64,000 bases of DNA, taken from NCBI GenBank assembly GCA_021773795.1, contig JAJFJT010000029.1, positions 1 through 64,000 of the forward strand. The letters run 5' to 3'. The DNA comes from Gammaproteobacteria bacterium (GTDB lineage: Bacteria; Pseudomonadota; Gammaproteobacteria; HK1). Both the position numbers and the translations under genes were made by a program. Shown piece by piece: positions 28,632-52,457 of this stretch (position 1 is the stretch's first letter; each line of letters begins with the position of its first letter). Below the pieces are notes generated by a model. It was not told where the DNA came from. It saw nothing but the letters and a program-made list of their open reading frames with translations, and searched no databases.

Positions 28632-28667
28632 CCCATGGGGCTGCGCAAGTAACCCAAAGTTTGACTA

Positions 28668-29016
28668 GGAGTCTGTCGGATTTAGGCGCCCGTAGTGAGA
28701 GGAAGCTATTTCGTGCAGGGAAACGCTTATGCTGCGATGGCATGGATGCCAGAGGGCAGTCCATGGCCAAAGAAGCCAAAGAGCGGTGATTGAGACAGAT
28801 TTTTCGATCATTTGAGGATAATAACCGGGCTATTAGAAGCTTCCGCATCCTGCTCACGCCCCTTACCCCACATCCCTGTAGGTAACGAAAAGGACCAAGA
28901 AATATGGCCAAAATGGCTTTTCCGCAGCAGAGCAGTCCTAAGGAAGCTCTGATCTATTCGTGAATTCGCATCTTGCGTCCAGAATAAATCAGAGCTTTCC
29001 TAAGTCCGACAGACTC
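28668..29016. mobile_element. Miniature element, family C copy 1, carrying a nested insertion
   Basis: Terminal inverted repeats GGAGTCTGTCGGATTTA / TAAGTCCGACAGACTCC, flanked by TA on both sides. The unit is 349 bp, of which 62 bp are a nested family B element and its duplicated target; the original unit was about 287 bp. It fills the gap between apaG and comM. It aligns in inverse orientation with the element at 47759-48018, including the central GGCATGGATGCC and the GTGATTGAGACAGATTTTT block. Confidence 0.8.
28941..28998. mobile_element. Internally deleted family B element nested in family C
   Basis: 58 bp that keeps both ends of family B (GGAAGCTCTGATCTATTC and AATAAATCAGAGCTTTC) but lacks about 100 bp of centre. 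The deletion joins the two CGCCCA-like motifs present in the full copies. CTAA flanks both sides (28937-28940, 28999-29002). Removing the insert and one CTAA restores the family C sequence seen uninterrupted near 48000. Confidence 0.8.
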
Positions 29017-29032
29017 CTATGATCCCCGGCAC

Positions 29033-42807: not shown

Positions 42808-45000
42808 ATGTCCGAGTTGGAACTGACAAGTCCTATGGATGGTTGCAAGGCAGTGGCGGTGCAAGACCGCACAGTGCTGTTTGGCCAGCCTCCGGAGGTG
42901 CTCAAAGCCCTGATTAAATCGGGGGCCAGCCCACTGGATGCCATGGTATTGCCGGATGTGCGTGAGCGTTCCGGCGCGCTGCTCAATAATCTGGAATTTC
43001 CCCTTTATTATTTCCTGTTTATGACCGATGGCTTGAAACATGGCCGTCGTCTAAAGCTCATCGGTGAACCCGAGCACTTGGCCCATGCCATGGAACAGCT
43101 GCGCCTGACCCTGCTGGGCCCACACCGTGAGGAGTTGGAGGCTTGGGATACGGATCCAAAGCTCCGTGAGGAATGGCTCAATGCGGGTGAATTTTTTGCC
43201 CTAAAGGACGATCAGGGGGCGGTGCGTCCGGTAGAGCATTTTATCGAACCGATTCCGTTTCACGACAATCGGGTCGAACTGGACGGTTACCACATTGAGC
43301 GTCTGGGGACAGATCGCTTCGTATTAGGTGCGGACGCAGGAAGTGTGGAAATCGACCTGAATGAGGTTGGGCAAATTACTCCGCCCTACGAGGTTTATGC
43401 CGACAATCTTCCGGGGCCGTTGTGCAAGTTTGGCATTGATGTATTGGGCGGGGCCTCGGGCTTCACCCCCGAAGAGGCGTCTACTGGTCTGGTGCTTTGT
43501 TTCAATGGCTGGTACGTCCTTATCGACTCCATCCCCTTCGCGGATTGGCATCTGCGGGCACGGGGGATTTCGAGAAACCAGATTCGTGCTTTATTTCTCA
43601 CGCATATCCACGATGACCATTGCAGCATGCTTCCACTAATGCAGATGTCACACCGGATTGAGGTGATCACCACCCGTGCGATCTACGAGATGGCGATGCA
43701 AAAGCTCGCCCTGGGGCTGGGCTGGACGGCGGCTGCGGTGAAGGAACATTTCCGCTTTTTGGAGATTACCCCCGGCCGTCCTTTTGGCTATTACGGCCTC
43801 AACATTGATGCGCATTGTGCCGTCCACAGCGTGCCGACCATCGGGGCGGTTTTTTCTGCCTCACGAGAAGGGCAAAAGCACCAGATCTGTGTAGTAGGGG
43901 ACAACCAGAGCTTTGCCGAGATCGAGCAGATGAGCACTCAGCAATTGATTCGGCCAGACACCGAGGCCTATCTCAAGCATCTCTACCGCGCACCCTTTGA
44001 CATGCTGGTAGCTGACGGGGGGATGGGTCTTATCCATGGTGATCCGGCGGATGCGCTCCAATCCGAGGCTGAGCGCGTGGTTTTTGTGCATGTGGACCGT
44101 CTGCCAAACCGTTATAACGCTACCTTCTCACTGGCCAGTTCGGGCAAACGCTATACCATTCTCGAAGGTGGCAATGATCTCTACACCATGCGCGCCATTG
44201 AGTTGCTCATGGAGAACTTTGGTGAGGCACTTTCCGGGCGCTGGTTGAGTAGCCTGTTTGCCGATACCGATATTCGCCACTTCAATACCGATGATGTGAT
44301 TCTCAAACAGGGTTGGGAGACCCGCGGTAATGTGCTGCTCATACTCACCGGCCATTGCCGGGTAATTCACCATGACGGCGAGCAGCTGCGCCTATTGGCA
44401 ACCCGCGAGGCCGGCGAGTTTGTGGGTGAAATGGCGGTGGTAACCGGCAGCGAAAAACGTAATGCCAGTGTGGTAGCGGCGACTCCGGTAACGGTCTGTG
44501 AATTTCGTGAGGATTCTTTTGGGATCTTCATTGAAAAGCGTGGTCTCAAGGAAGCGTTGCTGGCGCAGTGGGGCCTGCGTGAGACTATCTCCGTGCTGCC
44601 ACAGTTCGCCGGGCTCAGTACCACGGTGATTGATGCCCTGTCCGCTATCGTAGAGCGGCGCAGTCTTGAGCCGGGGCAGACTATGAGACTGGACGATGCT
44701 GGCGGTTGGTGGGCGATTATCTCCGCTGGTAGAGCGATCGATGTGGCCAGCGGTGAATTACTTGGCGTGGGTGACGAGGCAGGCTTTATGCCGCATGCAC
44801 CGCAAGGATCTTTGCGTCTTAAGGCAAAGGAAAAATGTATCGTACTTGGAATATCGGCGATGGTCCTGCGTGACCTGCTTGCAGAGAGTCCGCAGTTTAA
44901 TTTCAGCTTGCGGCAATATCGTGAAGGTCTGCACCCAGGGCGCCAACCTTGGAGTCTGACGCTCCATACACTGGCGGATGGTGCTGGCTCTGGTGCCTAG
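42808..45000 (+). CDS. Metallo-beta-lactamase fold plus cyclic-nucleotide-binding domain protein
   Basis: 730 residues; GGGAGG precedes the ATG. A family-specific N-terminal part (1-200) contains LLNNLEFPLYYFLFM. The MBL domain has the metal motif HIHDDH at 266-271, His340 and Asp365 (VVGDNQ). A cNMP-binding domain follows (about 480-590) with the phosphate-binding-cassette pattern GEFVGEMAVVTGSEKRNASV. A second, weaker CNBD-like segment ends the protein. It may be a nucleotide-gated phosphodiesterase or hydrolase; the substrate is unknown. Confidence 0.75.
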   Translation: MSELELTSPMDGCKAVAVQDRTVLFGQPPEVLKALIKSGASPLDAMVLPDVRERSGALLNNLEFPLYYFLFMTDGLKHGRRLKLIGEPEHLAHAMEQLRLTLLGPHREELEAWDTDPKLREEWLNAGEFFALKDDQGAVRPVEHFIEPIPFHDNRVELDGYHIERLGTDRFVLGADAGSVEIDLNEVGQITPPYEVYADNLPGPLCKFGIDVLGGASGFTPEEASTGLVLCFNGWYVLIDSIPFADWHLRARGISRNQIRALFLTHIHDDHCSMLPLMQMSHRIEVITTRAIYEMAMQKLALGLGWTAAAVKEHFRFLEITPGRPFGYYGLNIDAHCAVHSVPTIGAVFSASREGQKHQICVVGDNQSFAEIEQMSTQQLIRPDTEAYLKHLYRAPFDMLVADGGMGLIHGDPADALQSEAERVVFVHVDRLPNRYNATFSLASSGKRYTILEGGNDLYTMRAIELLMENFGEALSGRWLSSLFADTDIRHFNTDDVILKQGWETRGNVLLILTGHCRVIHHDGEQLRLLATREAGEFVGEMAVVTGSEKRNASVVAATPVTVCEFREDSFGIFIEKRGLKEALLAQWGLRETISVLPQFAGLSTTVIDALSAIVERRSLEPGQTMRLDDAGGWWAIISAGRAIDVASGELLGVGDEAGFMPHAPQGSLRLKAKEKCIVLGISAMVLRDLLAESPQFNFSLRQYREGLHPGRQPWSLTLHTLADGAGSGA

Positions 45001-45379: not shown

Positions 45380-45913
45380 ATGGCCATTAGTCCTCCAAGC
45401 AATCGTCTGTGGTGGAAGGAACCCATCGCCAAGGTAGAACTTATCTGGATCCTCATCGCCTTCGTCTGGGGCTTGGTGATGTTCTTCATGATGATCTACT
45501 GGCACGGAGCGGGAAATCAAAACCTCTCCAACGAAGCCTATAAGATTACACCTGAGGCCTTCGCCGAGAAGGCTCAGGCCATGACGGCAAAATATACCGT
45601 GCGTGAGGAGGCCGGATTTCCGGTGGTGAGTCCGCCGCCAGGCAGTGACGTCTATCTCATCGCAAGGCTCTGGCAGTGGTGGCCGATCCTGGAACTGAAA
45701 AAGGATCAAAGCTATCGCTTCCACCTTTCCTCCCTGGACTGGCAGCATGGTTTTTCACTCCAACCCACTAATATGAATCTGCAGGTCCACCCAGGCTACG
45801 AACTGGTTACCTCGATGACCCCGAATGCAGCCGGGGAATTCAGCGTGGTCTGTAATGAATTCTGCGGGATCGGCCACCACACCATGGTTGGCAAGATCTA
45901 CGTCAAGGAATAG
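45380..45913 (+). CDS. CuA-containing subunit II of a heme-copper reductase
   Basis: 177 residues, short as in ba3-type enzymes. One N-terminal membrane helix (VELIWILIAFVWGLVMFFMM) anchors a cupredoxin domain. The CuA ligands are all present: His123 (WQHGF), Cys158, Glu160, Cys162, His166 and Met169 in CNEFCGIGHHTM. It takes electrons from a soluble donor such as cytochrome c. AGGAGG precedes the start. If the cluster is an sNOR, this corresponds to NorS. Confidence 0.93.
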   Translation: MAISPPSNRLWWKEPIAKVELIWILIAFVWGLVMFFMMIYWHGAGNQNLSNEAYKITPEAFAEKAQAMTAKYTVREEAGFPVVSPPPGSDVYLIARLWQWWPILELKKDQSYRFHLSSLDWQHGFSLQPTNMNLQVHPGYELVTSMTPNAAGEFSVVCNEFCGIGHHTMVGKIYVKE

Positions 45914-45922
45914 GAGCAGTCG

Positions 45923-47608
45923 ATGGCAAACTCTGATGAATTTCGTACCTGTCCCGCCACCGGACTGCGCGTTCACCTTCAGGCCGATAACCTGATTAAG
46001 GCGAATGCGGTGGTTGCAGTGGTATTTCTCCTCATTGGTGGCCTGTTCGGTCTGCTGGTGGCACTTACCCGCTGGCCCGCGGTGCATATCCTGCCGGCGG
46101 ACTGGTTCTATCTTGCCCTCACCGCCCACGGATTTGACGTGCTACTGGTGTGGATCATCTTTTTCGAGATGGCGGTACTTCACTTTGCCTCCGCCGTACT
46201 GCTCGGTTCACGCGTCGCCACACCCAGGGTGGCTTGGGCAGGTTTTGTGCTGATGCTTATCGGTGCGCTGATGGCTAATGTGGCGGTATTGCAGGGTGAC
46301 TCCAGCGTTATGTTCACCTCCTATGTGCCCATGAGAGCGGCGCCTCATTTCTACCTCGGGGTGATTCTGTTTGCGGTAGGAGCCTTGCTCCAGGTCGGGG
46401 TGTTTTTCGGCACCCTGGTGGTGGCCAAGGCGGAAAAGACCTACGAAGGTTCTGTCCCGCTGGTGACTTTCGGGGCGCTGACTGCCGCCATCATCGCGGT
46501 GTTTACCATTGCCTCGGGCGCGATCATCCTGATTCCCACCTTCCTCTGGTCGCTGGGCTTTATCAGCCATATTGACCCGCTGGTGTACAAGACCATCTGG
46601 TGGGCCATGGGGCACTCCTCCCAGCAGATCAATGTAGCGGCTCACGTATCCATCTGGTATCTCGTTGCCGCGGTGGTATTGGGGGCGAAGCCACTCTCGG
46701 AAAAGGTGAGTCGTATGGCCTTTCTGATGTATATCCTGTTTTTGCAACTCGCCAGTGCGCATCATTTGTTGGCGGAGCCCGGGATATCCTCAGAATGGAA
46801 GATCTTTAACACCAGTTATGCCATGTATCTCGCGGTGCTGGGCAGCATGATCCATGGGCTGACGATCCCCGGGTCGATTGAAGCGGCACAACGTGCAAAA
46901 GGCTTTACCAATGGCCTCTTTGAGTGGTTGCGCAAGGCTCCATGGGGAAATCCGGCCTTTTCTGGAGTCTTCTTGTCCTTGCTGCTTTTTGGTTTCCTGG
47001 GTGGTATCTCTGGCGTGGTGATGGGGGTGGAACAGATCAACCTCATCATGCACAACACCCTCTATGTACCCGGTCATTTTCATGCCACCGTAGTTGCCGG
47101 TACGACGCTGACCTTTATGGCGGTAACCTACCTGCTGGTGCCGCTGATCTTCCAGCGTGAAATTATCTGGCCCAGGATCGCGCAATGGCAGCCCTATGTG
47201 TTTGCCGCTGGTGTGGCAGGAATATCTGTGTTCATGATGGGTGCAGGTACCCTGGGAGTGGCTCGTCGCCACTGGGACATGACTTTCGCTGACTCGGTAC
47301 TGCAGTTTGATTATCCAGCCGCAGCATTTCTGATGATGGGCCTGAATGGCTTGAGTGCAATACTGGCGGCTGTCGGTGGTGTGATGTATATCGCTGTGGT
47401 GGTTGCCTCCCTGCTCTTTGGTAAGCGTACTTCCAGTGAACCGGCAGCGGCTGCTCCATCAGAAGCTGCGGCGGTGGGCGAATACGGCAGCGCCACGGAG
47501 GTTCAGATTCCCGGGACGGCGGTACTCGCCGGGGTCTTCCTGACCGCTTTCGTGCTTTATTATTTCGTCAACTGGAAATACCTGTCCGAGATCTGGCCAC
47601 TCAGTTAG
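45923..47608 (+). CDS. Heme-copper reductase subunit I, probable sNOR-type
   Basis: 561 residues, 12-13 helices. Low-spin heme ligands His69 and His387, high-spin heme ligand His385 (VPGHFH), and CuB ligands His231 and His280-His281 (SAHHLL) are all present. The canonical GHPEVY is GHSSQQ, so residue +4 after the CuB histidine is Gln235, not the cross-linked Tyr of A/B-family oxidases. The C-family Tyr position on helix VII is also not Tyr. With the adjacent CuA subunit and Sco gene this matches the norSY-senC layout known from ammonia oxidisers, so NO reduction is the likely role. A divergent oxygen reductase remains possible. Confidence 0.8.
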   Translation: MANSDEFRTCPATGLRVHLQADNLIKANAVVAVVFLLIGGLFGLLVALTRWPAVHILPADWFYLALTAHGFDVLLVWIIFFEMAVLHFASAVLLGSRVATPRVAWAGFVLMLIGALMANVAVLQGDSSVMFTSYVPMRAAPHFYLGVILFAVGALLQVGVFFGTLVVAKAEKTYEGSVPLVTFGALTAAIIAVFTIASGAIILIPTFLWSLGFISHIDPLVYKTIWWAMGHSSQQINVAAHVSIWYLVAAVVLGAKPLSEKVSRMAFLMYILFLQLASAHHLLAEPGISSEWKIFNTSYAMYLAVLGSMIHGLTIPGSIEAAQRAKGFTNGLFEWLRKAPWGNPAFSGVFLSLLLFGFLGGISGVVMGVEQINLIMHNTLYVPGHFHATVVAGTTLTFMAVTYLLVPLIFQREIIWPRIAQWQPYVFAAGVAGISVFMMGAGTLGVARRHWDMTFADSVLQFDYPAAAFLMMGLNGLSAILAAVGGVMYIAVVVASLLFGKRTSSEPAAAAPSEAAAVGEYGSATEVQIPGTAVLAGVFLTAFVLYYFVNWKYLSEIWPLS

Positions 47609-47615
47609 CCAGCCC

Positions 47616-47655
47616 CGTGAGGGGGTGATAACTCGCCCCCTCACGCCTCTTTTCA
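47616..47655 (+). terminator. Terminator-like hairpin after subunit I
   Basis: A perfect 10-bp stem CGTGAGGGGG / CCCCCTCACG with a 10-nt loop begins 7 nt after the subunit I stop and is followed by a weak CCTCTTTT tract. It would separate the structural subunits from the Sco gene, whose region was also changed by a mobile element. Confidence 0.6.
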
Positions 47656-47757: not shown

Positions 47758-47758
47758 A

Positions 47759-48018
47759 GGAGCCTGTCGGATTTAGGACTGCCCCACTCGGCTTTGGCGT
47801 CCTGCGTTGCCCTACCTCCTGCATCCATGCAGTCGTGCGGAAACGCCCTATTGGCCATAATTCCCGCTTCTTTTCGTCTAATAGAGTGACTATTATCCTC
47901 AAACGACCAAAAAATCTGTCTCAATCACCACTCTTTGGCATCCATGCCACCGCGCCATATGTGCATCCCTGCACGAAATGGCTTCCCTCACTACGGACGC
48001 CTAAATCCGACAGGCTCC
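47759..48018. mobile_element. Miniature element, family C copy 2
   Basis: 260 bp with nearly perfect terminal inverted repeats GGAGCCTGTCGGATTTAGG / CCTAAATCCGACAGGCTCC. Left flank is TA, right flank TG, so the target duplication is decayed or absent. It is inverted relative to the copy at 28668-29016. It lies between subunit I and the Sco gene and reads in frame into the Sco signal peptide. Confidence 0.8.
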
Positions 48019-48854
48019 TGGTAAAAACAATCTGCTTTCTACGGTGGGCGGTTTCCGTGCTTTTGGTGCCTGTGTTGATGCTTGCAAGTGCTAGTGTCAG
48101 CGGCCATGGGGGCCCGACCATGTCAGTAGCCGGTAGTGACTTTAATGAAAAATCGGCACTCACTTTTAGCCAAGCAGCCATAGGTCGTAAGCTAGGCGAA
48201 TATAGCTTCCGCAATCGTCAGGGGGAGCCCGTATCCTTCTCCTCCTTTCACGGAAAACCGTTGTTGATAAGCCTTATCTATACCAGTTGCTATCATGTTT
48301 GCCCCCTGCTGACCCGCCATCTCGCACACGCTGTGGAGGTCGCCCGCGAGGCCTTGGGAGAGGACAGTTTTACGGTGCTGACCATCGGTTTTGACAGCGT
48401 CGTGGACAACCCTGAGCGCATGCGTATTTTTGCCAACGGGCAGGGTATACGGGATCCGCAATGGCATTTCCTGAGTGCTGATGCCGATACCATTAAGCAT
48501 TTAGTCCGCGATGTGGGTTTTATCTATTTTTCTTCCCCCAAGGGTTTTGACCATCTCGCTCAGACCACGGTTATCGACGGGGCGGGGCGGGTATATCGTC
48601 AGGTCTACGGAAATGAACCAGAGGTCCCCCACGTGGTAGAGCCATTGAAGCAACTGGTTTTCGGTCGTCCGGTAGCGGCTACGGAGTTGGGTGACTGGAT
48701 TAGTCGAGTGCGCCTATTCTGCACCGTCTATGATCCGGCGACAGGCCGCTATCACTTTGATAAATCGCTGTTTGTGGGTATTTTTGCGGGCATCCTCAGC
48801 CTTGGGGCGGTGGCTGTTTTTCTGGTTCACGGTTGGCGTCAACGCAAAGCCTGA
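47961..48854 (+). CDS. Sco/SenC copper chaperone
   Basis: About 297 residues if started at GTG 47961, which lies inside the mobile element. The signal peptide FLRWAVSVLLVPVLMLASASVSG (48036 on) has no ATG upstream of its hydrophobic core outside the element; ATG 48078 would cut into it. The thioredoxin-fold domain has YTSCYHVCPLL (the CxxxC copper pair) and a C-terminal membrane helix LFVGIFAGILSLGAVAVFL. It delivers copper to CuA. Start uncertain; family certain. 4 nt separate it from the cytochrome b gene. Confidence 0.85.
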   Translation: MHPCTKWLPSLRTPKSDRLLVKTICFLRWAVSVLLVPVLMLASASVSGHGGPTMSVAGSDFNEKSALTFSQAAIGRKLGEYSFRNRQGEPVSFSSFHGKPLLISLIYTSCYHVCPLLTRHLAHAVEVAREALGEDSFTVLTIGFDSVVDNPERMRIFANGQGIRDPQWHFLSADADTIKHLVRDVGFIYFSSPKGFDHLAQTTVIDGAGRVYRQVYGNEPEVPHVVEPLKQLVFGRPVAATELGDWISRVRLFCTVYDPATGRYHFDKSLFVGIFAGILSLGAVAVFLVHGWRQRKA

Positions 48855-48858
48855 TGCC

Positions 48859-50445
48859 ATGACGGGAACGAGAACACCGCGGCGCTGGCTCGATCGCCTT
48901 GAGGGTGGTTTTGACCTCATCTTCACCCCGAGACACAACCCCCTCAATCAACTCGGTGCCTTGGGCTGGTTTTTCTATTGGATAGTCCTGGTTACCGGGA
49001 TTTACCTGTACATCTTTTTTGATACCGGCTTGCGCGATGCCTATGAGTCGCTGGAGCGTATTACCCATGTGCAGTGGTTTGCCGGTGGCGTCATGCGTAG
49101 CCTGCACCGTTATGCCTCTGATGCCCTCGTGCTGGTGATGGTGGTGCATGTAATGCGGGAATGGGTACTGGGGCGGTTCCGCGGTGCGCGCTGGTTTGCC
49201 TGGGTCAGCGGTGTGCCACTGCTCTGGTTTGTCTATGCCAGTGGTATTAGCGGCTACTGGATGGTGTGGGACCAGCTGGCCCAGTATATTGCCATCGCTA
49301 CCACCGAATGGCTGGATGCACTGCCCTTCTTTGGCGAGCCTATCGCCCGTAATTTCCTTCGTGACGGGACCCTCAGTGGTCGCTTTTTCACTCTGATGGT
49401 CTTCATCCATATCGGTGTGCCGCTATTTCTGATGTTCCTGATGTGGGTGCATATCCAGCGCCATATGAGCCCTCGTGTTAATCCACCGCGCGGGTTGGCG
49501 GTGGGGATCCTCCTGGTGCTGGTACTGCTTTCCCTTATCAAGCCGGCATTGAGCCAGGCACCGGCAGATCTCGGGGTCGTACCTGCAGTAATTGGCTTTG
49601 ACTGGTTCTATCTGCCTGCTTACCCGTTACTGGAGAAAATCTCCGGTCTGAGTTTGTGGGGAATCCTTGTTTTCGGCAGCCTGTTTATGCTGTGTTTCCC
49701 ATGGATTGGCCGCATCAGGCGGCAACCCGTCGCAGTGGTGGATCTGGATAATTGCAATGGTTGCGGTCGCTGCGTACAGGATTGCCCCTTTTCTGCCCTG
49801 ACCCTGGAGCCACGACAGGATGGCTTACCATTTAGTCATCAGGTCGAGGTTAAGAGCGCCTTGTGCATGAGTTGCGGCATCTGCGCTGGAGCTTGTCCCA
49901 CGGCCACACCCTTTCGTCGCAGCAAAGCATTGACGCCGGGCATTGATATGCCACACCGGCCCTTACAGGAAATTCTGGGGCAGAGCGTTGCGGCCACGGC
50001 AGTGCTCACGGGGGAAGATCGCGTACTGGTTTATCTCTGTGACGCTGGCCCGAAGCTAGCCGATGTTATTGCGGACAGTGGGGTTGCGGTGGTGTGTTTA
50101 CCCTGCGTCGCCATGTTGCCACCGCCTTTCATGGACTATCTGTTAAGCCGTGATCATGTGGATGGTATTTTCCTTGCCGGTTGTCGGCAGGGCGATTGTC
50201 ACTTCCGTCTCGGCCTGGAGTGGACTGAGCAACGTATTGCCCGTGAGCGTGACCCCATGTTGCGTCGGCGAGTACAGCGGGAAAGAATCGGGCATGCTTG
50301 GGTTGGCTGTGCCCATGACGTTCAGCTGCAGGCGCAGTTGGCCGATTTCCGCGCGGGCCTCCCACACCGGAGGGGAGAGCCGCCCGCAAAGGGCGTGGCG
50401 CCGGAAAGCAGTGAGCCTGTAACCGAGGATGCAGGGCATGTTTAG
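48859..50445 (+). CDS. Cytochrome b / 2[4Fe-4S] ferredoxin / MvhD-like fusion protein
   Basis: 528 residues from ATG 48859. Residues 1-290 are cytochrome b/b6-like: His83/His97 and His184/His198 keep the 14-residue spacing of the two heme pairs of bc1 cytochrome b. A double ferredoxin follows: Cys299-302-305-309 and Cys336-339-342-346. The C-terminus resembles MvhD/FlpD, the iron-sulfur subunit linking hydrogenase to heterodisulfide reductase (Cys394, 413, 416, 442, 447; GCRQGDCHF). It could pass electrons between quinone and a cytosolic partner. Overlaps the next gene by 8 nt. Confidence 0.82.
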   Translation: MTGTRTPRRWLDRLEGGFDLIFTPRHNPLNQLGALGWFFYWIVLVTGIYLYIFFDTGLRDAYESLERITHVQWFAGGVMRSLHRYASDALVLVMVVHVMREWVLGRFRGARWFAWVSGVPLLWFVYASGISGYWMVWDQLAQYIAIATTEWLDALPFFGEPIARNFLRDGTLSGRFFTLMVFIHIGVPLFLMFLMWVHIQRHMSPRVNPPRGLAVGILLVLVLLSLIKPALSQAPADLGVVPAVIGFDWFYLPAYPLLEKISGLSLWGILVFGSLFMLCFPWIGRIRRQPVAVVDLDNCNGCGRCVQDCPFSALTLEPRQDGLPFSHQVEVKSALCMSCGICAGACPTATPFRRSKALTPGIDMPHRPLQEILGQSVAATAVLTGEDRVLVYLCDAGPKLADVIADSGVAVVCLPCVAMLPPPFMDYLLSRDHVDGIFLAGCRQGDCHFRLGLEWTEQRIARERDPMLRRRVQRERIGHAWVGCAHDVQLQAQLADFRAGLPHRRGEPPAKGVAPESSEPVTEDAGHV

Positions 50446-50964: not shown

Positions 50965-51363
50965 ATGGGGTGGTTAGCGTGGAAGGATGAATACTCGGTG
51001 GGAGTGCCAGGTGTGGATCATGAGCACCAGCAACTCATCGAACACATTAATCAGGCTGTCACCCAATTTTCCGGTTCCGACGCTGAAGGTGCGGTGAGTG
51101 AGATGCTGGAGGAGATTCATGCCCAGATTTCGGCCCATTTTGCCCTTGAGGAGCGATATATGCGGCAGGAATCCTACCCGCGCTACAGTGGGCACAAAGA
51201 GGATCATGAGCGTCTGTTGGAGGATATTCACGATATTATGGATGACTACGAGGCGCGGCAGTTTTACGATCAGGCGGCATTTTCCAAGCGTTTGCATCAC
51301 TGGTTCAGCCGCCATTTTTCCACTTGGGACAGCTGGTGGCACGAGCAGGATCCGATTTCATGA
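50965..51363 (+). CDS. Bacteriohemerythrin
   Basis: 132 residues. The diiron ligand set is visible: GVDHEHQQLIEHIN, HFALEERYM, YSGHKEDHERLLEDIHD and the C-terminal HHWFSRHFSTWD. It binds O2 reversibly and related proteins handle NO. It ends in a 4-nt overlap with the heme A synthase gene, so it is co-translated with this respiratory cluster. Confidence 0.92.
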   Translation: MGWLAWKDEYSVGVPGVDHEHQQLIEHINQAVTQFSGSDAEGAVSEMLEEIHAQISAHFALEERYMRQESYPRYSGHKEDHERLLEDIHDIMDDYEARQFYDQAAFSKRLHHWFSRHFSTWDSWWHEQDPIS

Positions 51364-52457
51364 ATACAGCACCGATGGCGGGGATAGGGGACGATATGAG
51401 GGAGCGGCGTGCCATTGCCGTTTGGCTATTGCTGGTGTGCGGCTTGGTGTTCGCTATGGTGGTGCTGGGTGGGGTCACGCGGCTGACCCATTCCGGCCTT
51501 TCAATGGTGGAATGGAAACCCATCATGGGGATTCTGCCACCCCTCAATGAGGCCGAGTGGGAGATTGCTTTTCACAAATATCAGCAGTACCCGGAGTTCC
51601 AGCAGATTAACTCCGGCATGGATCTCGCGGGCTTCCAGTCAATCTTCTGGTTTGAGTATTTGCATCGCCTGCTGGGACGCAGTATCGGGCTGATATTTTT
51701 CCTGCCCTTTATTTGGTTTCTGGTGCGTCGACGCATACCGCCAGGGCTTATGCCAAAGCTGATTGTGATGTTTGTTCTCGGGGGACTACAGGGCCTGATG
51801 GGTTGGTATATGGTGAAGAGTGGACTGGTGGACCGACCGGATGTGAGTGCCTACCGCCTGACTGCTCATTTGGGATTGGCGCTGATTATCTATGCCTATA
51901 CCTTCTGGGTGGCGCTGGACCTGCTTTCTCCGCGCCTGCCACGGGGCAGCGCTTTGCCGTGGCCCGGCTCGCGAAAAACGGCACTTCGGCTGGTGCACGC
52001 GATCTTTTACACCGCGCTGGCGGGTGGTTTGGTGGCGGGTACCGATGCCGGTTTTGCCTACAACACCTTTCCGTTGATGGGTGGCCAGTGGTTTCCCGAT
52101 GGAGCCTTCGTGCTGGAGCCAGTGGCCCGTAATTTCTTTGAGAATATTGCCTTGGTGCAGTTCAATCACCGTATGCTAGCCATGGGCACCCTGGTTGCGA
52201 CCATCATCTTTTGGCTATGGATGCTGCCCCGGAACTGTCCCTTCGCCATCCGTTTGCCCATGCATTGTCTGATGGCAGCGCTAATGTTGCAGGTGAGCCT
52301 GGGGATTGGCACCTTGCTGCTGAGTGTTCCGGTCCCGCTGGCGGCCGCTCATCAGGCAGGTGCGCTGGTGGCGTTAACGGCGGCCCTCTGGCTCACCCAT
52401 TGTTTCCGCCAACGCAACATCGTAGAGGCGTGGTTCTCTGCCAAGAAGGGTGATTGA
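51360..52457 (+). CDS. ctaA: Heme A synthase (CtaA/Cox15)
   Basis: 365 residues, eight helices in two four-helix halves. Key histidines appear in RLTHSGLSMVEWKP, FEYLHRLLGR, LTAHLGLAL, FNHRMLAMG and AAHQAGAL. It oxidises heme O to heme A. Its place in the operon implies that the neighbouring reductase uses an A-type heme or that the genome couples heme A supply to it; CtaB is not in this window. ATG overlaps the hemerythrin stop. Confidence 0.95.
   Translation: MNTAPMAGIGDDMRERRAIAVWLLLVCGLVFAMVVLGGVTRLTHSGLSMVEWKPIMGILPPLNEAEWEIAFHKYQQYPEFQQINSGMDLAGFQSIFWFEYLHRLLGRSIGLIFFLPFIWFLVRRRIPPGLMPKLIVMFVLGGLQGLMGWYMVKSGLVDRPDVSAYRLTAHLGLALIIYAYTFWVALDLLSPRLPRGSALPWPGSRKTALRLVHAIFYTALAGGLVAGTDAGFAYNTFPLMGGQWFPDGAFVLEPVARNFFENIALVQFNHRMLAMGTLVATIIFWLWMLPRNCPFAIRLPMHCLMAALMLQVSLGIGTLLLSVPVPLAAAHQAGALVALTAALWLTHCFRQRNIVEAWFSAKKGD

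Follow-up and report, generated by a model that had tools for sequence, protein, structure and literature searches.

A cytochrome b-ferredoxin-MvhD/FlpD fusion protein encoded with eNOR-type nitric oxide reductase in Proteobacteria

The eNOR, sNOR, gNOR and nNOR classes of nitric oxide (NO) reductase were reportedly defined by Murali et al. Several of the heme-copper enzymes can be told apart by one active-site residue, which is glutamine in eNOR, asparagine in sNOR and tyrosine in the oxygen reductases (PMC8756737 Table A4). In a different setting, the electrons of HdrA run from MvhD to the C-terminal ferredoxin and from there to the flavin (PMC9012536). We have analyzed a window of 64,000 nucleotides (contig JAJFJT010000029.1 of a gammaproteobacterial assembly, GCA_021773795.1) in which a membrane protein with an MvhD-like domain is encoded close to a heme-copper enzyme. 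The features of this operon, by position in the window, are as follows.

45380 to 45913, plus strand: eNOR subunit II, a cupredoxin with the CuA motif C158-x3-C162-x3-H166-x2-M169 and H123
45923 to 47608, plus strand: eNOR subunit I, the heme-copper enzyme, with Gln235 replacing the oxidase tyrosine
47616 to 47645, plus strand: 13-bp hairpin with a T-rich tail between eNOR subunit I and SCO1, terminator- or attenuator-like
47835 to 48854, plus strand: SCO1/SenC copper chaperone (mechanical ORF; the conserved protein begins at about 48024)
48859 to 50445, plus strand: cytochrome b-ferredoxin-MvhD/FlpD fusion, an uninterrupted frame of 528 aa that opens with ATG
48859 to 49722, plus strand: cytochrome b part of the fusion, residues 1-288 (Pfam, AlphaFold model, alignment)
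49729 to 49905, plus strand: double [4Fe-4S] ferredoxin of the fusion, residues 291-349, predicted cytosolic
50023 to 50355, plus strand: MvhD/FlpD-like [2Fe-2S] domain of the fusion, residues ~389-499, with C394, C416, C442 and C447
50429 to 50941, plus strand: orf170, with a predicted N-terminal membrane helix and periplasmic beta-sandwich, overlapping the fusion by 17 nt
50965 to 51363, plus strand: hemerythrin-family protein, conserved in position
51324 to 52457, plus strand: CtaA/COX15 heme A synthase

A GTG at 48691 gives a longer in-frame ORF for the fusion; the alignment of homologues begins at the ATG at 48859. Searching Pfam with the protein returned, in this order, Cytochrome_B (residues 30-199, E 1.8e-16; 61 bits vs. 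a cut-off of 27.2), a double Fer4 (Fer4/Fer4_7, residues 291-349, E 1.7e-10 and 6.2e-10) and FlpD (PF02662, residues 406-499; 43.8 bits vs. a cut-off of 22.3). The sequence-only reading had placed four heme histidines, eight ferredoxin cysteines and an MvhD-type GC-GDCH motif on this one chain, and each was recovered: 1) the histidines are H83/H97 and H184/H198, in helices B and D, with a spacing of 14 residues within both pairs, the second pair being spaced 15 in the organism's own bc1 cytochrome b as counted from the alignment; 2) the ferredoxin cysteines are C299/302/305/309 and C336/339/342/346; and 3) the MvhD motif is 441-GCRQGDCH-448, with C394 and C416 as further conserved cysteines. 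The same architecture was found at full length in more than 100 aligned homologues with nearly all ligands retained. Among these 105 homologues, the four heme histidines and the eight ferredoxin cysteines were kept in all rows that reach them, and C394, C416, C442 and C447 were jointly kept in 100; in alignment A2, Cytochrome_B, Fer4 and FlpD were matched by all 65 fusion members at E<=1e-5. The assignment of the C-terminal part to MvhD held by profile as well as by sequence to solved chains, as C416, C442 and C447 align with 5odc_D and 9sw2_D; in the profile search, the match to the HdrA2 model NF040770 covers positions 564-766 only. An origin by frameshift or chimera, a concern raised for this gene earlier, was ruled out, since independent genomes encode intact full-length homologues that are 47-83% identical to the fusion.

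The AlphaFold model of the fusion (pLDDT 87, pTM 0.86) has six membrane helices, and its membrane part superimposes on bc1 cytochrome b with Z scores of 20-24 over ~255 residues. An amphipathic helix is followed by helices A-F; in comparison with 13 bc1-type cytochromes b, including those of relatives, the alignment stops after helix F, with helices G-H being absent. At the PEWY/PVWY position of the ef loop the fusion carries FDWF, of which D248 and W249 are invariant, and the residues of the cd1 segment are Qo-like and likewise invariant. The inner loops of the cytochrome b part are rich in arginine. Homology with bc1 would place both ferredoxin and MvhD on the cytosolic side.

The neighboring enzyme, described at first simply as heme-copper, does belong to the heme-copper enzymes and is B-family by its similarity to ba3, but it does not appear to be an oxygen reductase. 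The position of the cross-linked tyrosine (H231+4) is occupied by Q235, and glutamine is found there in >=97% of 65 rows, as it is in the Thermus and Thermomicrobium relatives (47% and 45% identity, respectively); haloarchaeal ba3-type enzymes carry tyrosine at this position. In the tree, the enzymes of the fusion operons and those of Thermus/Thermomicrobium form one group with support of 100/99, apart from the Tyr-type enzymes, with some long branches. The CuA ligands of subunit II (C158/C162/H166/M169 and H123) are conserved. From the glutamine at the tyrosine position and from this grouping, we class the neighbor, which has a CuA subunit, as a nitric oxide reductase of the eNOR type and not as an ordinary oxidase. 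An identity with sNOR/norSY, first considered from gene order, was ruled out by the active-site glutamine and the tree. The only other COX1 protein in this organism is a Tyr-type oxidase. The genome also encodes a NirK-like copper protein (G000:C27:44836-45672, minus strand) scoring below the NCBIfam cut-off, which is a likely NO source for eNOR; cytochrome cd1 was not found in this genome. In the surroundings of one Thermus eNOR copy are genes for a nitrite reductase and a regulator of the Rrf2 family.

A subset of the operons also carries a second COX1-family protein (~459-477 aa) with no adjoining CuA subunit, in which the histidines of helices II, VI and X are kept; from its copper site, the His-His pair in helix VII is missing.

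L145:11490-12866; L147:7027-8457 (minus strand); L190-L194: second COX1-family protein
L052:9679-11022; L035:9643-10992; L032:661-2037: second COX1-family protein, further loci

The fusion, a bacterial membrane protein of wide occurrence and as yet uncharacterised, is almost always found with eNOR. Within the genus, it is present in another species at 83% identity and absent from a third, and six further sampled relatives carry it at 49-60% identity. A scan with one genome per species yielded at least 569 related stretches; the best 80 of these, which we inspected, all came from Gamma- or Alphaproteobacteria or unclassified Proteobacteria. An even sample of 398 genomes, all from the phylum Pseudomonadota, contained 34 with the fusion: 29 had both fusion and eNOR, five the fusion alone and one eNOR alone (Fisher p 8e-38, with shared ancestry ignored). 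Four of the five fusion-only genomes are <90% complete, and the contig of the single eNOR-only genome terminates directly after SCO1. Cytochrom_D1 proteins, which include NirS, were encoded in 28/34 genomes with the fusion vs. 30/364 others (p 3e-21, ancestry again ignored). In some genomes, the fusion-orf170 pair adjoins nirS while eNOR and SCO1 are located elsewhere, and this placement argues that the pair is a part of denitrification in general and not just of the eNOR structural cluster. The eNOR loci of Thermus and Thermomicrobium are without the fusion, which is thus not generally needed for eNOR catalysis. A plasmid of Defluviimonas sp. SAOS-178_SWC (NZ_CP156080.1, 165 kb; locus L110) carries a complete eNOR-CyoE-SCO-fusion-orf170-hemerythrin operon, so that the gene set may travel; this fusion copy, the only annotated one on a plasmid, is labelled just "cytochrome b N-terminal domain-containing protein". 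Tandem pairs of full fusion genes occur at loci L144, L145 and L146 (genomes G187, G252 and G278) and also in G329, with one orf170 after the pair in the three loci read.

The order of genes around the fusion is well conserved. Among the best 80 of at least 569 loci, orf170 lies downstream in 79 and hemerythrin in 76, and SCO1 lies upstream in 78 and a heme-copper subunit in 72, several of the loci without the latter being contigs that start shortly upstream of the fusion. A gap of ~0.7-0.9 kb separates the heme-copper subunit from SCO1 in many loci and, where read, holds CyoE (heme O synthase). In our window, this interval contains the hairpin at 47616-47645 (-26 kcal/mol, z -5), a possible terminator or attenuator within the operon, and a MITE-like element at 47758-48019 (262 bp) from which the SCO1 ORF probably gets its spurious start; the element is one of two such elements with matching ~20-nt inverted ends, the other being at 28667-29018 (352 bp). 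Upstream of the operon, at 42808-45000 on the plus strand, lies a gene for a 730-aa protein with a metallo-beta-lactamase fold and a cyclic-nucleotide-binding part, which is retained in the nearest relative (L030) and absent from the other loci.

Of 67 loci, 64 have the fusion and orf170 either overlapping or <=10 nt apart, with a median of -8 nt; this suggests that the two proteins are stoichiometric partners. The predicted model of orf170 (pLDDT 96) consists of one membrane helix and a beta-sandwich domain that we take as periplasmic. The protein has H49 as well as Cys57 and Cys78; two rows without the cysteine pair have lost both residues together, as would be expected of a disulfide. Foldseek gave no match for this fold at E<=0.001, and VIA-align returned generic beta-sandwiches only, the best being HGSNAT (Z 8.9, rmsd 2.7, 93 residues); such generic matches provide no functional hint.

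One explanation suggested by this neighborhood is that the fusion is a maturation reductase, a functional analogue of CcoG/FixG of the cbb3 oxidases, through which cytosolic electrons would cross the membrane to reduce Cu(II), the thiols of SCO1/CuA or the disulfide of orf170 in the service of eNOR copper and heme. The fusion gene indeed follows directly on the structural genes, in the company of CyoE, SCO1 and, in some cases, CtaA, and the presence of these three genes fits a maturation role and a role in electron input equally well. The translational coupling of orf170 to the fusion, together with its membrane helix, beta-sandwich, H49 and jointly lost cysteine pair, is also in keeping with maturation. 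CcoG itself, a Cu(II) reductase whose gene follows those of the oxidase, has two [4Fe-4S] clusters and an Ig-like periplasmic domain (PMC7558416). On the other hand, CcoG is no cytochrome b, two hemes and three clusters appear excessive for an assembly factor, and in several genomes fusion-orf170 adjoins nirS, which needs no copper, away from eNOR-SCO1. Weighing these points, we consider a maturation role possible but doubtful, and the chief rival of electron input. The adjoining hemerythrin, together with the reactivity of NO with Fe-S clusters, might instead speak for a redox- or NO-sensing or regulatory membrane protein that is not an enzyme of the electron chain; with all redox ligands retained and a signalling output domain absent, we regard this idea as highly improbable.

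The best clue to polarity came from a variant cytochrome b in which Fer2, FAD_binding_6 and NAD_binding_1 replace the ferredoxin-MvhD part; among 120 genomes of a single family, 12 encode it.

L147:10543-12519, minus strand: cytochrome b-Fer2-FAD-NAD variant
G507, G474, G543, G542, G533, G559, G549, G537, G452, G536 and G540: further genomes with the variant

In G417 and five further operons, the variant is encoded within ~10 kb of the eNOR genes, near a normal fusion. Reductase modules of the Fer2-FAD-NAD(P)-binding kind oxidise NAD(P)H, and the exchange of cytosolic modules thus suggests that electrons enter from the cytosol. HdrA, whose C-terminal ferredoxin receives electrons from MvhD (PMC9012536), is in agreement with this polarity.

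Based on these data, we propose that the fusion and orf170 bring electrons into the membrane as an input module for the NO-reducing eNOR system of proteobacteria, which is the most likely of the explanations considered, at about even odds. Behind it stand the architecture of the fusion, the conservation of its ligands, its coupling to eNOR at the level of operon and genome, and the swap of its cytosolic module. We infer the direction of the electrons, the order of the clusters, the donor and the acceptor as follows. A cytosolic reductant would deliver electrons to the MvhD-type [2Fe-2S] center, from which they would pass through the two ferredoxin [4Fe-4S] clusters to the heme b on the cytosolic side (H97/H198); crossing the membrane, they would then reach the heme b on the outer side (H83/H184). 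For the exit from this heme, we tentatively consider quinone at the Qo-like pocket, the basis for putative quinone binding being D248-W249 and the cd1 segment only; a direct exit to NO-reduction components on the outer side, either orf170 or eNOR, seems somewhat less likely still. A direct wire by which a cytosolic donor would supply quinone or the reductase had already been suggested from the letters of the DNA, and in the light of the NAD(P)H/FAD/[2Fe-2S] swap it is the best-supported reading, with quinone, eNOR itself and a maturation partner as candidate acceptors. Counting against electron input are the presence of a bc1-type cytochrome b of its own in the genome, which also ruled out the fusion as a replacement of bc1, and the CuA site, since a CuA-bearing subunit II is normally fed with electrons by cytochrome c or a cupredoxin. 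The operon contains no gene for a donor such as a flavoprotein, hydrogenase or formate dehydrogenase. In a more far-reaching form, which we think unlikely, the fusion, orf170 and eNOR would constitute one membrane complex, a cytosolic-donor:NO oxidoreductase that by-passes quinone, bc1 and cytochrome c and has interchangeable donor modules, either ferredoxin-MvhD or NAD(P)H-FAD.

Flow in the opposite direction would have the cytochrome b oxidise quinol and hand electrons, by way of ferredoxin and MvhD, to an acceptor in the cytosol; the high-potential electron might meanwhile go towards eNOR, in a bifurcation without a Rieske protein. The invariant Qo-like D248-W249 and cd1 residues would suit such a scheme, and cytochromes b of the HdrDE type do feed Fe-S disulfide reductases; however, the potentials of b hemes are normally too high for reducing ferredoxin-type clusters, the NAD(P)H-reductase swap indicates the opposite direction, and the operon is devoid of an HdrB/HdrA-type acceptor. 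The link to heterodisulfide reductase known for MvhD/FlpD in anaerobes found no counterpart either, as searches of the organism's own genome yielded only ferredoxin matches for HdrA and no second FlpD. Taken together, these points render reverse flow quite improbable.

We found no published description of the cytochrome b-MvhD fusion or its operon among open-licence PMC papers. NO reductases of the eNOR type occur widely, their usual annotation being that of oxygen reductases, and the fusion is useful as a marker gene to distinguish proteobacterial eNOR from ba3 oxidase. Proteobacterial eNOR has in the fusion a conserved, unstudied membrane partner, the parts of which suggest a private electron supply or an assembly route. 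If cytosolic electrons are indeed channelled to NO reduction by this protein, the wiring of N2O production and NO detoxification would change for many uncultured Gamma- and Alphaproteobacteria, and an MvhD electron plug of the methanogen type would have been placed in membrane respiration.

Set against known systems, the fusion resembles the cytochrome b of bc1/b6f (PF00033) in its helices A-F, four heme histidines and cd1 segment, but differs in lacking helices G-H, in its attached cytosolic Fe-S domains and in having FDWF for PEWY/PVWY; beside it are SCO1, orf170, hemerythrin and CtaA, with genes for a Rieske protein and cytochrome c1/f being absent. With the C-terminus of HdrA2 and MvhD (5odc_D) it shares the ferredoxin-then-MvhD order, GC-x2-GDCH and the conserved cysteines; unlike HdrA, it has no FAD/thioredoxin-reductase-like part and is joined to a cytochrome b, and unlike in MvhD/Hdr systems, no hydrogenase, formate dehydrogenase or HdrBC gene adjoins it. 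The heme-copper neighbor, with its glutamine and CuA subunit, is like the eNOR of Ardenticatena, Thermus and Thermomicrobium (PMC8756737 Table A4), but in the proteobacterial operon it is joined by SCO1, the fusion, orf170, hemerythrin and, in many cases, CyoE; the Thermus/Thermomicrobium loci are without the fusion. The succession of a CuA subunit, a heme-copper subunit, SCO/SenC and an extra gene recalls norSY-senC-orf1, the sNOR of ammonia oxidisers (PMC4940428), whereas the active site of sNOR has asparagine (PMC8756737) in place of the Gln235 found here. Finally, CcoG/FixG of ccoGHIS is also a membrane protein with two [4Fe-4S] clusters encoded after heme-copper oxidase genes, but it belongs to another sequence family and has neither a cytochrome b nor an MvhD domain.
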